Origin: Synechococcus sp. RS9909
GTDB lineage: Bacteria > Cyanobacteriota > Cyanobacteriia > PCC-6307 > Cyanobiaceae
Assembly (NCBI RefSeq): GCF_014279595.1
Contig: NZ_CP047943.1
Location: forward strand, 2,044,422-2,108,421
Direction: 5' to 3'
DNA: 64,000 nt
Shown: positions 3,365 to 30,209 of the stretch, piece by piece
Position numbering within the stretch: position 1 is the stretch's first letter
How the letters are laid out: each line of letters begins with the position of its first letter
Program-made: the position numbers and the translations under genes
Notes under the pieces: model-generated
The model's database searches: none
What the model was told of the DNA's origin: nothing
The model's input: only the letters and a program-made list of their open reading frames with translations

Positions 3365-5679
3365 CAGAATTTCCAGCCCACACCCAGGTTGAAACGCCAG
3401 TCACCGGTGAAGTCCTGGCTGGCCACCTCCAGGCGCAAGGGGCCGACCGGGGTGGTAACGATCACACCGGTACCGATGGAGAAGCCTGATCCCGGTTTGT
3501 CGAGGAGCTCACCCGGCTTTCCGGGAACATTCGCCTGGGAACCGAAGGACGTGCCGGCATCCACGAAGAGTTCACCGGCAAAAATGCTGATGATCGGGAA
3601 GCGGTATTCAATCGTGGCCTCACCGAAGCTGCGGCCCACACCCAGATCGCAGTCATACCAACCGCGCACGGAATTGGAGCCGCCCAGGCAGAAGGCTTCG
3701 TAGGGGGGAAGCTGACCGATGACGGTGCCCGCCTTCAGCTGGATGCCAATCGCCTGGGGGCAATTGGCCTTCTCGCCGGGCTTGGGACGACAACCCTTCG
3801 CGATCTTGAGCCAGTTCACAGGGAAGAACTGGGTGTAACTGGCCCTTAAGCGGTTGAAGGTGGGGGAATTGGCCCCCACGGAAACGAATTGCTCGGTTCC
3901 CAGGCTGAGGAAATTACCGGAGGTGGGATTGCGTGGATCGTTCAGCTTGTTGTAGGTGGCGGCGAAGCGCACGCTGGCCAGATTATTTTCGGTGGCGCAA
4001 TCGGAGGAATTGCTGCTGTAGGCAATACAGATGATCTCATCATTCGGAATCCGATCATTGTTGATATTTTCATTAGGAACGCCGTAGGGACGCGAATCCC
4101 CAGCGAAATTGATCGGACGCACATTCTGGATGTTCAATCCAGCCAAAACATTCCAGGGTACGATCTTGTAGGGATCACCACCGTTGAGCGGCCGGGCAAA
4201 CACAATATTGCCGCCGACCCGCTGCAAAGCAACGGAATCACCCTCGAAGTCAAACCAGCTGTATTCAGGGAATTGCTTGTCGGCATTGGCAACATTGTCA
4301 AACTTTCGCCCCGCGGGATTGTTGTCGGTGTTGATCTCGTAGGCGTAGGTGGAGTTGTTGTTGACGTAGTCATCCACCGTGACGATGCTGCCGTTGTTCT
4401 GACTCTGGAAGACCTGGGGAACTTCCCGGCTCAGGAACAACGAGGTGCGGAAGGAGGTTCGCCATTTATCCCCTTTGATCCAGGGATCGGTGAAGGTGAA
4501 ATTCGCCAGGCCGCCATACTGGCCATAGGTAAGGTTGAGCGCCAGATTCCAGGCCCGCCCGAACAGGTTGCTGTCCTGGAGCTGCACCTGGCCGAACACA
4601 CCCTGACTCTGGCTGTACCCGAGACCACCGGAGAGGGAGCCCGTGGATTGCTCCACAATGCCAAGAATGATGTTGACGGTGCCAGGCTCACCGGCCACCG
4701 GCTTCAGGGTCACCTTCACATCACTGAACAGCGAGGTGCTGTAAAGGCGTTTGATGTCACCTTCCAGCTGATTGCGGTTGAACGGTTCACCGGGCTTGAT
4801 CGAGATTTCCCGTGTCACCACCCAGGGCTTGGTCTTGCCCTTGATCGGCTCACCCTTGTCGTTGGTGCTCTCGCCCTCCCTGTTCAGGAACTGCACCTCC
4901 ACACCGGCCACAGTGCCGATCACCACCTTGAGCTGCACCACACCCTCGGGGCTGACCCGACTGGGCCCGGAGACCCGTGCCAGCGAGTAGCCCTCCTTGG
5001 CATACCAACCCTGCAGCTCCTTCATCCGCAACTGGAGCTCATTCAGGTTGAGCGTGCGGCCGTAGTCGGAACTGAACGTCTGCTCAACCACCTCCGGCGG
5101 CATCTTGGTGTCGTCGGGTTCAAGCTCAACCTGGGTCAGCACGGGGTTGGGCACCACCTTCACCAACAGCTGCACGCCCAGGGGGCCATTGATCGGCTCG
5201 ATCCGGACATCGGAAAACCAGCCGGTGGCGTAGATCGCATCCAGATCGGTTTTGAGCTGGTCGCGGGTGACGCGACTGCCCGGACGCACCGTCATCGCGT
5301 CGTAGGCCGCCAGCTCGAGGCGCTCCTGTTCCGGATGACCGGCAATGCCTTCGATCACCACCTCACTGATCAGCACCCGAGGCTGGGCCGGCGCCTGCTC
5401 CAGGGGCTCCTGCACCGCAGGCTGTTGCTCAGGGGGCAGCTGCTGCTCGGCTGCGGGCTGCTGCTGGGAAGGGAGGACCTCCTCCACCTCAATTTTTTCC
5501 ACGTCCACCTGCTCCACCTCAACCTCCACCGTCTCGGTCAGAGGCTGCTCCTGCTGCTGCTCTGCTGGATTCTCCTGGGCCCTCAGGGCTGGGCTGGCCA
5601 TCAGGGGCAAGGCCAGAGCAAGACCCAGAGCTCCCCGCCGAACGGCGTCCGTGGTCCGGCTTGAGGAGAAATTGACCAT
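3364..5679 (-). CDS. bamA: Outer-membrane assembly factor BamA/Omp85
   Basis: Omp85/BamA inserts beta-barrel proteins into the outer membrane. The 771-residue product starts with a basic segment and a hydrophobic stretch ending MASPALRAQ, a signal peptide. An acidic low-complexity region rich in Val, Glu, Gln and Pro follows (about residues 40-95). Then come POTRA domains (for example ISEVVIEGIAGHPEQERLE, then TGWFSDVRIEP, and later TSLFSDVKVTL), and a C-terminal 16-strand-type barrel with GGSNSVRGW and terminal RFNLGVGWKF. The ATG at 5679 is preferred over an in-frame TTG at 5712. Cyanobacterial homologues carry three POTRA domains and are relatives of chloroplast Toc75/Oep80. It lies 46 bp downstream of purC and overlaps lpxC by 3 bp. 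Confidence 0.93.
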   Translation of the reverse strand: MVNFSSSRTTDAVRRGALGLALALPLMASPALRAQENPAEQQQEQPLTETVEVEVEQVDVEKIEVEEVLPSQQQPAAEQQLPPEQQPAVQEPLEQAPAQPRVLISEVVIEGIAGHPEQERLELAAYDAMTVRPGSRVTRDQLKTDLDAIYATGWFSDVRIEPINGPLGVQLLVKVVPNPVLTQVELEPDDTKMPPEVVEQTFSSDYGRTLNLNELQLRMKELQGWYAKEGYSLARVSGPSRVSPEGVVQLKVVIGTVAGVEVQFLNREGESTNDKGEPIKGKTKPWVVTREISIKPGEPFNRNQLEGDIKRLYSTSLFSDVKVTLKPVAGEPGTVNIILGIVEQSTGSLSGGLGYSQSQGVFGQVQLQDSNLFGRAWNLALNLTYGQYGGLANFTFTDPWIKGDKWRTSFRTSLFLSREVPQVFQSQNNGSIVTVDDYVNNNSTYAYEINTDNNPAGRKFDNVANADKQFPEYSWFDFEGDSVALQRVGGNIVFARPLNGGDPYKIVPWNVLAGLNIQNVRPINFAGDSRPYGVPNENINNDRIPNDEIICIAYSSNSSDCATENNLASVRFAATYNKLNDPRNPTSGNFLSLGTEQFVSVGANSPTFNRLRASYTQFFPVNWLKIAKGCRPKPGEKANCPQAIGIQLKAGTVIGQLPPYEAFCLGGSNSVRGWYDCDLGVGRSFGEATIEYRFPIISIFAGELFVDAGTSFGSQANVPGKPGELLDKPGSGFSIGTGVIVTTPVGPLRLEVASQDFTGDWRFNLGVGWKF

Positions 5680-28489: not shown

Positions 28490-29203
28490 GTGCCGAGCGG
28501 AAGGGAGGTCCTCCCCCTGGCCACGGTGTTGCCACGGGCCTGGATCGGATTCAGCAAAGCCCCGTGGCGCTGTGTGGGCCTGGCGGCCTTGATTCTGATC
28601 ACCCTGATGGGACCAGGGGTGCTGGCCAGCGACATGCAACGCAGTGGCTGGCCCCTGATTGCGAGCCTGGGCCACCTGCTCGTGGCCTGCAGTCTGCTGC
28701 TGCCGATCGCTCCCGCCGTGGCGTTGCTGCAGCTGGCGGATCAACTGCTCCCCGGCCCGGGAGCCGCTCCAGAAGGCCACAACCATCCCCAACCCACCAC
28801 AAGGCTCTGGCTCTGGCGTCAGGGCGTGGCACTGCTGCTTCTCGAGCTGCTGATCCTGGCCGGCGGACTGACGGGCCTGAAGCTGCTGTACGACCTCTTG
28901 ATCGCCCAGAGCGGCGTCTTGGCTGGAGCAGCCCTGCTCGCTGGCGGACTGGCTCTCAGCGTCTGGACAGCCGGGCAGCTGCTGGCCTTCCCGTTGCTGG
29001 TCCATCACCGGCATCGACCCCTGGCTGCCATGGAGCACAGCAGTCGCCTGGTGAATGGCAACCGCCTCAAGGTGCTGGCCCTGATCGGGCTTCTTCTCGG
29101 ACTCAATGCCGTGGGACTGATGGGTGCCTGCCTCGGGCTGCTCATCAGCCTCCCCTTGAGCGCCTTGGTTCTGATGGCCAGCTGCCGGACTCAGACGTCC
29201 TGA
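28490..29203 (+). CDS. Conserved multi-pass membrane protein, function unknown
   Basis: The 237-residue product has about six hydrophobic segments. Examples are WRCVGLAALILITLMGPGVL, PLIASLGHLLVACSLLLPIA and VALLLLELLILAGGLTGLKLL, with a final LLIGLLLGLN..GLMGACLGLLIS pair. A Leu/Ala-rich composition and no charged catalytic motif suggest an uncharacterised integral membrane protein. The GTG at 28490 starts 7 bp after the EVE gene stop. A TTG at 28466 would overlap it. It converges on the DUF2811 gene with a 13-bp overlap. No family is recognised with confidence. Confidence 0.75.
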   Translation: MPSGREVLPLATVLPRAWIGFSKAPWRCVGLAALILITLMGPGVLASDMQRSGWPLIASLGHLLVACSLLLPIAPAVALLQLADQLLPGPGAAPEGHNHPQPTTRLWLWRQGVALLLLELLILAGGLTGLKLLYDLLIAQSGVLAGAALLAGGLALSVWTAGQLLAFPLLVHHRHRPLAAMEHSSRLVNGNRLKVLALIGLLLGLNAVGLMGACLGLLISLPLSALVLMASCRTQTS

Positions 29204-29520
29204 AGCAAGGACTGGCGACAGAACAGATTGCCCACATAGAGACGGGTGATCGACCTGGAGCTGACCCCGTTCTGCACCAGAAACCCAGCCAGTGCGGCCT
29301 GCACCAGGCGGTAGTGGTCCCAGTTGGGGTGTCGCTCGATGAAACGACGCATGGCCTGCTGGAGCGGTTCGGGAAGCTCGGTCTGAAAACTCACGGTCGC
29401 GGTTTCAGCCACCTGGGGGGCGGGAGCTCGATGACCTGAGGGCGCCCCAACCGACACAGGCGCCCCTGCTTCCGCAACCTCAGCTGTGTTCATCACCCGC
29501 ATGTCGTGCACTGACCGCAT
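29191..29520 (-). CDS. DUF2811-family small protein
   Basis: The 109-residue product carries a core matching the DUF2811 family of cyanobacteria: FQTELPEPLQQAMRRFIERHPNWDHYRLVQAALAGFLVQNG, then SRSITRLYVGNLF. Function is unknown. The N-terminal 40 residues are Ala/Val/Pro-rich and variable. The ATG at 29520 has a GAGGGG six bases upstream, which favours it over the in-frame ATGs at 29502 and 29493. Its upstream region contains one of the DnaA-box-like sites, so its transcription may respond to replication status (inference). Confidence 0.82.
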   Translation of the reverse strand: MRSVHDMRVMNTAEVAEAGAPVSVGAPSGHRAPAPQVAETATVSFQTELPEPLQQAMRRFIERHPNWDHYRLVQAALAGFLVQNGVSSRSITRLYVGNLFCRQSLLQDV

Positions 29521-29828
29521 CCCAGACCCCTCAAACGCTCACCAGTTCTCCACACCCTGAGGGCGACGTCAAGCGGCAAATGCGACGCCCTTCCAAGCGG
29601 TTCTCCCGATAAGACTCCAGGCACAAAGCCCTTTCCTGGCCTGTGATGCGGTGAAGAGTCCGAGACAAGCCGCCTCGCGCCGCCCGTCAAGGGAGCGAGA
29701 GCCAGAAAGCCGACTTTTCCACAGTCGAAGCCCATGCGCGCCATTCCAAGCAAAAGCCTGTGGAAAAGCTCCTCAAGACCACGCGGCAAACCGTGGAAAA
29801 ACAAAAACGAGAAAATGATCAGCAGGGC
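29521..29828. other. 308-bp intergenic region with clustered DnaA-box-like sites
   Basis: No convincing gene is seen here. The region contains TTTTCCACA at 29715-29723 and its inverse complement TGTGGAAAA at 29759-29767, both exact matches to what I recall as the cyanobacterial DnaA box. TTTTCCACG (reverse strand, 29792-29800) and TTCTCCACA at 29546-29554 are one-mismatch relatives. An A-rich patch (29797-29818) lies at the right end. It could be a replication origin, a DnaA-titration site, or DnaA-regulated promoters. Confidence 0.6.
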
Positions 29829-30209
29829 TTATGAAGGCGGGGAGTCCCAGAGCGTTCTCACCGCTGCCGCCATCGCCTGGGCTGCGGGGGCCGGCCAATG
29901 CCCTTCCACGCCCCGTTCCCCCAGGGTGTCGTCCTGCAGAACCACCCGCAGATCCCATTGATCGCGATCACCATCGAGACACCCCCACCAGGGCAAGCGC
30001 TCCAACTCCAGGCTCAAAGCCTCTTCAGCCATCAACTGATCGACCAGCGCTCGATGCTGCTCCACCAGGGCGGTGATCAGGGAGACAAGCTCGCGCCACT
30101 CGTCTCCGGTCAACTCAAAAGCCCATCCCTCACCACCAATCAAGACGGGATAGCGGCAGCGGGAAGGATCCCAGGCCAGGCGCCAACCGGGCCCCTCGCG
30201 CTGAATCAT
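29829..30209 (-). CDS. DUF1818-family protein
   Basis: The 126-residue product matches the cyanobacterial DUF1818 family: [38 protein letters not shown] near the start, [22 protein letters not shown] in the middle, and [14 protein letters not shown] near the end. Its function is unknown, though conservation across cyanobacteria suggests a housekeeping or photosynthesis-related role. The ATG at 30209 overlaps the rpoZ stop (ATGA), indicating translational coupling with the RNA polymerase omega subunit. Confidence 0.85.

Follow-up and report, generated by a model that had tools for sequence, protein, structure and literature searches.

Phased DnaA-box arrays upstream of DUF2811 genes in cyanobacteria, a probable DnaA-controlled regulatory element

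The intergenic region between DUF2811 and DUF1818

The window, a 64-kb stretch of DNA analysed here, contains a DUF2811 gene and a DUF1818 gene that are both on the (-) strand. As an earlier note on this DNA had described and the ORF coordinates confirmed, they are separated by an intergenic gap of 308 bp (29521-29828). An RNA polymerase omega-like gene (PF01192) precedes DUF1818. Four sites in the gap resemble the word TTTTCCACA (Table 1). All four, two exact and two with one mismatch, were found where the note had placed them, as was the copy of TTTTCCACG at 5495-5503, and no further exact TTTTCCACA is present within the 64-kb window. The note had named TTTTCCACA as the cyanobacterial DnaA-box word; this matches the published origin of S. 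elongatus, which adjoins dnaN and has 11 boxes with the consensus TTTTCCACA (PMC3480399).

Toward DUF2811, the order of the elements is weak outer box, box A, box B, CTTGAC, CTTGAC, and box C. Boxes A and B form inverted arms that are perfect over 11 bp in the window. At the place of the weak outer box, many relatives have TTCCCC, and its distance of 33 bp from box A agrees with one of the phased spacings described below (32-33 bp). The first CTTGAC is a possible -35 element, its promoter role being suggested by sequence. Among the family loci L014-L042, the words GTCTTA..GAGAC are also conserved in the gap, and a dyad resembling ATTGATTAG..CTAATCAAT lies directly past the DUF1818 stop; the dyad is degenerate in the window itself.

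Table 1. Features of the gap and its flanking genes, in coordinates of the window
Feature	Position	Strand	Description
DUF2811 gene	29191-29520	-	PF10929, 109 aa, E 4.4e-28
Family-conserved block	29544-29554	-	TGTGGAGAACT, containing box C
Box C	29546-29554		TTCTCCACA in (+) reading; one mismatch; 25 bp before DUF2811 ORF start
CTTGAC, second	29568-29573	-	Family-conserved; just ahead of box C; putative element
CTTGAC, first	29686-29691	-	Family-conserved (alignment of 30 loci); downstream of boxes A and B
Box B	29715-29723	+	Exact TTTTCCACA; inverted; 44 bp from box A
Box A	29759-29767	-	Exact TTTTCCACA; same direction as DUF2811; position kept in relatives
Weak outer box	29792-29800	-	TTTTCCACG, one mismatch; 33 bp before box A, orientation as A
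DUF1818 gene	29829-30209	-	PF08848; upstream neighbour in the window's family

The number of boxes proves nothing, since finding seven sites in 64 kb when one mismatch is allowed is ordinary by comparison with shuffled sequences (mean 5.85; at least seven in 38 of 100 shuffles). A count across the whole genome, which the note had proposed, went against the idea of an overrepresented word. In the genome (one contig, 2,603,169 bp), exact TTTTCCACA occurs 7 times and the reversed word 11 times, with 223 and 230 occurrences, respectively, when one mismatch is allowed. The exact word is rarer than its reversed control, and thus TTTTCCACA as such is not enriched. Close pairs of boxes, on the other hand, are rare in the sampled stretches: in a 400 kb sample of the genome, the sole pair (at most one mismatch) within 60 bp adjoins dnaN, just upstream. 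Three of the seven exact copies in the genome are in DUF2811 arrays (2074136, 2074180, and 1344554), and a fourth (1344260) is inside the start of a DUF2811 copy. The decisive evidence is the arrangement conserved in relatives, not box number.

Conservation of the array and its linkage to DUF2811

The window's family is taken to be Cyanobiaceae (marine Synechococcus and Prochlorococcus) on the basis of gene content and genome size. Of 121 genomes sampled from it, 111 had DUF1818, and 90 of these 111 loci were examined. DUF2811 was on the same strand in 72 of them; the other 18, with no same-strand DUF2811 in the DNA examined, were left out of the pair count. Conservation of the boxes in relatives had been named in the note as a check, and it was borne out. 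An inverted pair at 44-46 bp was present in 65 of the 72 DUF1818-DUF2811 gaps (44 bp in 43, 45 bp in 18, and 46 bp in 4) and in none of 360 mononucleotide shuffles. The remaining seven gaps had more altered boxes, spaced 44-45 bp. Across family loci of 28% to 67% G+C, the spacer sequence varies freely and the boxes and their spacing are kept. A box of the box C type was present in 39 of the 65 paired loci. The exact inverted pair occurred in 37 of the 121 family genomes, once in each, and the reversed-pattern control in none of the 121. Thirty of these exact-pair loci were examined: 28 had both genes, L140 had DUF1818 only, and L124 had DUF2811 only.

The window's genome has two extra DUF2811 copies, at G000:C1:1284749-1284919 and 1344100-1344270, and the 14 family genomes searched had 2 to 5 DUF2811 matches each. 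All 15 further copies examined in the window's family had at least two boxes upstream, spaced 21-22 bp in 14 of them and 11 bp in L286. For the main-type copies in this family, at least two boxes were found in 13 of 15 (one each in L259 and L262), with two copies from G010 included among the 15 family loci. Altogether, 28 of 30 DUF2811 copies examined in the family had at least two boxes upstream.

Of the 388 genomes sampled from the class, 375 have PF10929, and the boxes were found with it in other families. We examined 75 other-family loci from genomes with DnaA, each with at least 500 bp of upstream DNA; L235, L239, and L242, which have no DnaA, were counted apart. At least two boxes were present within 700 bp upstream in 72 of the 75, and at least one exact box in 69. 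L220 and L241 had no box and L232 had one. These 75 loci averaged 1.99 exact boxes per locus compared with 0.021 in shuffles. In named genomes, where at least 600 bp of upstream DNA was required (2 of 80 loci dropped), at least two boxes were upstream of DUF2811 in 75 of 78, the exceptions being L287, L338, and L341. Picosynechococcus PCC 7117 has two exact boxes that are 21 bp apart, Synechocystis salina (L346) passed the count only because two near-boxes are scattered in its upstream DNA, and a single box was found in the endosymbiont of Epithemia clementina. Stretches of equal length beyond the array and on the other side of the gene are almost devoid of boxes. At 127 class loci with full flanks, there were 1.87 exact boxes per locus in the 700 bp upstream, 0.03 farther upstream, and 0.00 downstream, and at least two boxes were found at 122, 2, and 2 loci, respectively.

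The arrays are phased. Among same-strand box distances of up to 60 bp at the 75 other-family loci, 278 of 307 were 11, 21-22, 32-33, 42-44, or 53-55 bp. We aligned the 134 of 147 loci that had a suitable exact box, using the last exact box as the anchor, and a common plan emerged with boxes at -43, -21, and 0. An inverted TGKGGA was at +44/+45 in 92 of the 134 loci and at +46 in three more. Since the class plan has an inverted box at +44/45, the inverted pair in the window is its version of the class-wide plan, and box A is the counterpart of the anchor box. Furthermore, TGTAAA (42 occurrences) or TATAAA (14) starts at +90 to +99 from the anchor, and this is perhaps a -10 element; the proposed -10 and -35 elements were picked by eye. 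The arrays are about 200-600 bp ahead of the DUF2811 coding domain, a distance that would suit a simple promoter only with a long leader.

It is DUF2811, and not DUF1818, that the element accompanies. The inverted pair was beside DUF2811 where DUF1818 was not found at L124 and at 10 loci of other families, and DUF1818 was not found beside the element in the tested loci of other families. The exact pair alone was present in 78 of 388 genomes across the class (control 0). Among the matches listed, 21 exact-pair loci from other families (L153-L173) were examined; DUF2811 was nearby in 10 and absent from the DNA examined in 11, and thus outside the window's family the exact pair does not by itself identify a DUF2811 locus. 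In some of the 11 pairs without DUF2811 in the DNA examined (L153-L157, L163, L168-L170, L172, and L173), additional boxes are present between the arms, and such pairs may represent origins or other targets of DnaA.

The DUF2811 protein, loss of dnaA, and the gene downstream

DUF2811 is a 57-residue domain, and the protein is small and mostly helical. The model of the 109-aa protein had a mean pLDDT of 71.1; its best Foldseek match had an E value of 3.7, and its best VIA match was to pyrroline-carboxylate reductase (Z 4.5 over 44 residues). The model of the 66-aa L190 protein (mean pLDDT 86.9) has extended residues 1-12 and helices at 13-25, 31-46, and 51-62. In outline, this model resembles a ribbon-helix-helix protein to which a third helix has been added. 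Its best Foldseek E value was 3.3, neither model gave a known fold, and the Pfam matches at E<=1 included no ribbon-helix-helix family among those listed. A PDB sequence-profile search gave one hit with an E value of 1.7, and four DUF2811 proteins had no NCBIfam match at E<=1. DUF2811 therefore had no significant match to other Pfam or NCBIfam families or to PDB sequences; Sda was outside this comparison. There was no DUF2811 match in phage records, and DUF2811 appeared in no paper of the literature library searched.

To follow DUF2811 and DnaA together, we used 334 of the 388 genomes (completeness >=90%, contamination <=5%), with PF08299, the box-binding domain of DnaA, as the marker of the protein. 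PF08299 was missing in 13 of these genomes, PF10929 in 12, and both in 10. In other words, DUF2811 was missing in 10 of 13 DnaA-less genomes and in 2 of 321 DnaA-bearing ones (Fisher p 4e-15, if the genomes were independent, which they are not). The ten joint-loss genomes are from f36 (6), f42 (1), and two f32 genera (1 and 2). Since six of the ten are in one family, there were maybe only three or four independent joint losses. The two genomes with DnaA and without DUF2811 (G145 and G257) are assemblies of about 380 and 460 contigs. Three DnaA-less genomes still have a DUF2811 sequence. In G444 it has two stops, and upstream of it are a near-box and an exact box that is oppositely oriented; in G256 it is open with no box left, whereas the DnaA-bearing genus mate G420 has three exact boxes; and in G470 it is open with one exact and two altered boxes. 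Of the 54 excluded genomes, seven without a DnaA match (62-83% complete) have DUF2811, and one with DnaA lacks DUF2811. DUF2811 is mostly discarded when dnaA is lost. Loss of dnaA has been published for free-living Cyanobacterium and Geminocystis and for endosymbionts (PMC7198777).

In 45 of 160 loci, the gene immediately after DUF2811, on its strand, encodes a protoporphyrinogen oxidase (L177-L256 and L287-L366, including L192, L210, L190, and L214; 127 of the 160 span over 3,000 bp). The matched stretches of the two genes are 34-522 bp apart, and no oxidase gene was found upstream or on the opposite strand in the DNA examined at the 160 loci. Two unrelated kinds of oxidase are present, HemJ-like in 18 loci and FAD-type in 27, and the four that were checked pass the NCBIfam cut-offs of TIGR00701 and TIGR00562. 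In the 60 class loci L177-L236, the 9 HemJ-like and 10 FAD-type genes have 19 different family labels. There was no oxidase gene in the window or in 61 loci of its family (about 1.5 kb of flanking DNA). That enzymes of two unrelated types, both catalysing the same step, occupy the same position suggests a functional link between DUF2811 and the oxidase, which we regard as a lead.

Control of DUF2811 by DnaA and alternative readings

The earlier note had offered three readings of the gap: a replication origin, a DnaA-titration locus, or DnaA control of a flanking gene. A cluster of oriented, phased DnaA boxes is oriC-like, and the element has the same box word as the S. elongatus origin described in PMC3480399; unlike that origin, it is not at dnaN and has no skew switch. 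In the window's genome, dnaN starts at 174 of the contig, 529 kb from the gap, and dnaA is at 1.796 Mb. We measured skew in 20 sampled 20-kb stretches and in the window divided into four parts. GC and AT skew were +0.038 and -0.104 just after the contig start and -0.033 and +0.042 just before it, and they mostly keep their sign along each arm; exceptions are 260-280 kb, with both signs reversed, and 780 to 1450 kb on the terminus side, with mixed signs. Within the window, GC skew does not change sign from quarter to quarter (-0.010, -0.031, -0.027, and -0.015), and AT skew is +0.077, +0.072, -0.008, and +0.076, the third quarter being a further exception. Both skews thus switch at dnaN and not at the window, a result that counts against the origin reading only. 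Inexact boxes (one or two mismatches) extend from -194 to +4 across the contig start, where the 100 bp richest in A+T of the surrounding 2 kb are also found, and this dnaN-proximal group is likely to be oriC. Moreover, dnaN is up to half a chromosome away from the element in other families. We therefore rejected the gap as an origin, whether main or secondary, a reading that is now extremely improbable. A non-coding DnaA titration or nucleotide-switch site, with DUF2811 as a mere neighbour, is a better alternative and still an unlikely one. In E. coli, datA and DARS1/2 are box groups off oriC in which the boxes are conserved and the spacer regions are variable (PMC4585315), and the DUF2811 element is likewise a DnaA-box group outside oriC with conserved spacing. 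The fixed geometry with its inverted pair fits such a site, as does the presence of exact boxes in the gap when the dnaN-proximal origin has inexact ones only. With dnaN as a proxy for oriC, a fraction of 0.169-0.242 of the chromosome separates the locus from dnaN in all but one of 12 family genomes (0.366 in G071). This distance ranges from 0.013 to 0.499 in 18 genomes outside the family (seven genome lengths rounded), however, whereas datA and DARS are non-coding, keep their relative distance from oriC and, in the case of datA, have an IHF site. The element is instead linked to a gene, being found with DUF2811 across families and beside its further copies, and the DUF2811 protein itself is co-lost with DnaA.

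Two other readings concern what would recognise the sites. A protein other than DnaA could bind TTTTCCACA, which is very unlikely given that the published origin consensus is this same word (PMC3480399) and that the gene or the array decays in most DnaA-less genomes. Alternatively, the perfect 11-bp arms in the window could form an RNA hairpin or belong to a small RNA. The arms do not co-vary: of the 65 family pairs, 34 are exact, 27 have one arm altered, and 4 have both altered with no matching changes. In addition, the usual class-wide partner TGGGGA pairs incompletely with TTTTCCACA, and Rfam gave no match in the gap and two sub-threshold hits outside it. An RNA element was therefore rejected, and its probability is close to nil.

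Two regions of the window's genome drew attention during these searches. The stretch at 260001-280000 (G000:C1, L045) has about 16.5 kb of long plus-strand frames with a strongly different third-position skew (-0.486) and a strand skew of reversed sign, and it may hold a giant gene or an acquired one. Frames of 275 aa at G000:C1:357614, 1244135, and 1262941 have identical weak Bac_DnaA scores and are presumably insertion-sequence ATPase copies of the IstB/DnaC type.

The gap cluster is very probably the cis-regulatory region of DUF2811, a copy of a cyanobacteria-wide element that would act as a DnaA-controlled promoter similar to that of sda. Of the three readings, DnaA control of a flanking gene is the one that gained support, with DUF2811 as the gene and DnaA as the predicted binder. 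The layout would be a run of helically spaced boxes in one orientation, followed about 44 bp after the last of them by an inverted box and then by the transcription start and DUF2811. The phased boxes would be bound cooperatively by DnaA, most probably as ATP-DnaA, which would act on a promoter just downstream of the array, so that DUF2811 expression would be set by replication state. Activation is the likelier direction because the array is upstream of the apparent core promoter. In the window's family, box C is close to the gene and could add repression. Since DUF2811 is mostly discarded when dnaA is lost, the protein probably acts in the DnaA pathway.

Sda is a small checkpoint protein with a helical fold. 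As in the case of sda, the element is a DnaA-box array upstream of a small-protein gene and away from the origin, and as in a promoter of the sda type, there are several boxes upstream (72 of 75 other-family and 13 of 15 window-family loci) that are tied to the gene and not to a place. It differs from sda in being cyanobacterial, in its spacing, which is mostly 21-22 bp and includes an inverted box 44 bp away, in the co-loss of DUF2811 with dnaA, and in the protoporphyrinogen oxidase gene that is often downstream. In B. subtilis, sda is directly activated by DnaA at an array of upstream boxes with a preference for ATP-DnaA (PMC4447404), and for 91% of 339 genes, DnaA-dependent expression was reported to run through one protein (PMC8203912). 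E. coli DnaA prefers paired boxes 2-3 bp apart, or 11-12 bp start-to-start (PMC11317965). In the literature on DnaA in cyanobacteria that we searched, no title or abstract described such an array; full texts and subscription journals may hold one.

In a red alga, DNA replication in the organelles and in the nucleus is connected by a tetrapyrrole signal (PMC3539659), and DnaA binding to oriC depends on photosynthesis in S. elongatus (PMC6478999). An ancient DnaA-DUF2811 circuit, with the oxidase gene often next in line, might couple replication state to chlorophyll and haem (tetrapyrrole) synthesis. This output would keep dnaA where replication is DnaA-independent, and DUF2811 would be useless and lost once dnaA goes. 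We offer this idea tentatively and consider it rather doubtful as it stands.

The role of DnaA is unclear in Synechocystis 6803, PCC 7002, and Nostoc 7120, which replicate without DnaA (Ohbayashi et al. 2020, PMC7198777). A class-wide array before one gene, mostly co-lost with dnaA, is a candidate DnaA target, and the question of the role of DnaA could thus be tested with the dnaA mutants described by Ohbayashi et al. (PMC7198777). The array is also a first lead on the DUF2811 family, present in 375 of the 388 sampled genomes of the class, and an example of an apparent regulatory element with its spacing kept across a whole class. The proposed control of a neighbouring gene by DnaA would in this way extend from one gap to an element found throughout the cyanobacteria.
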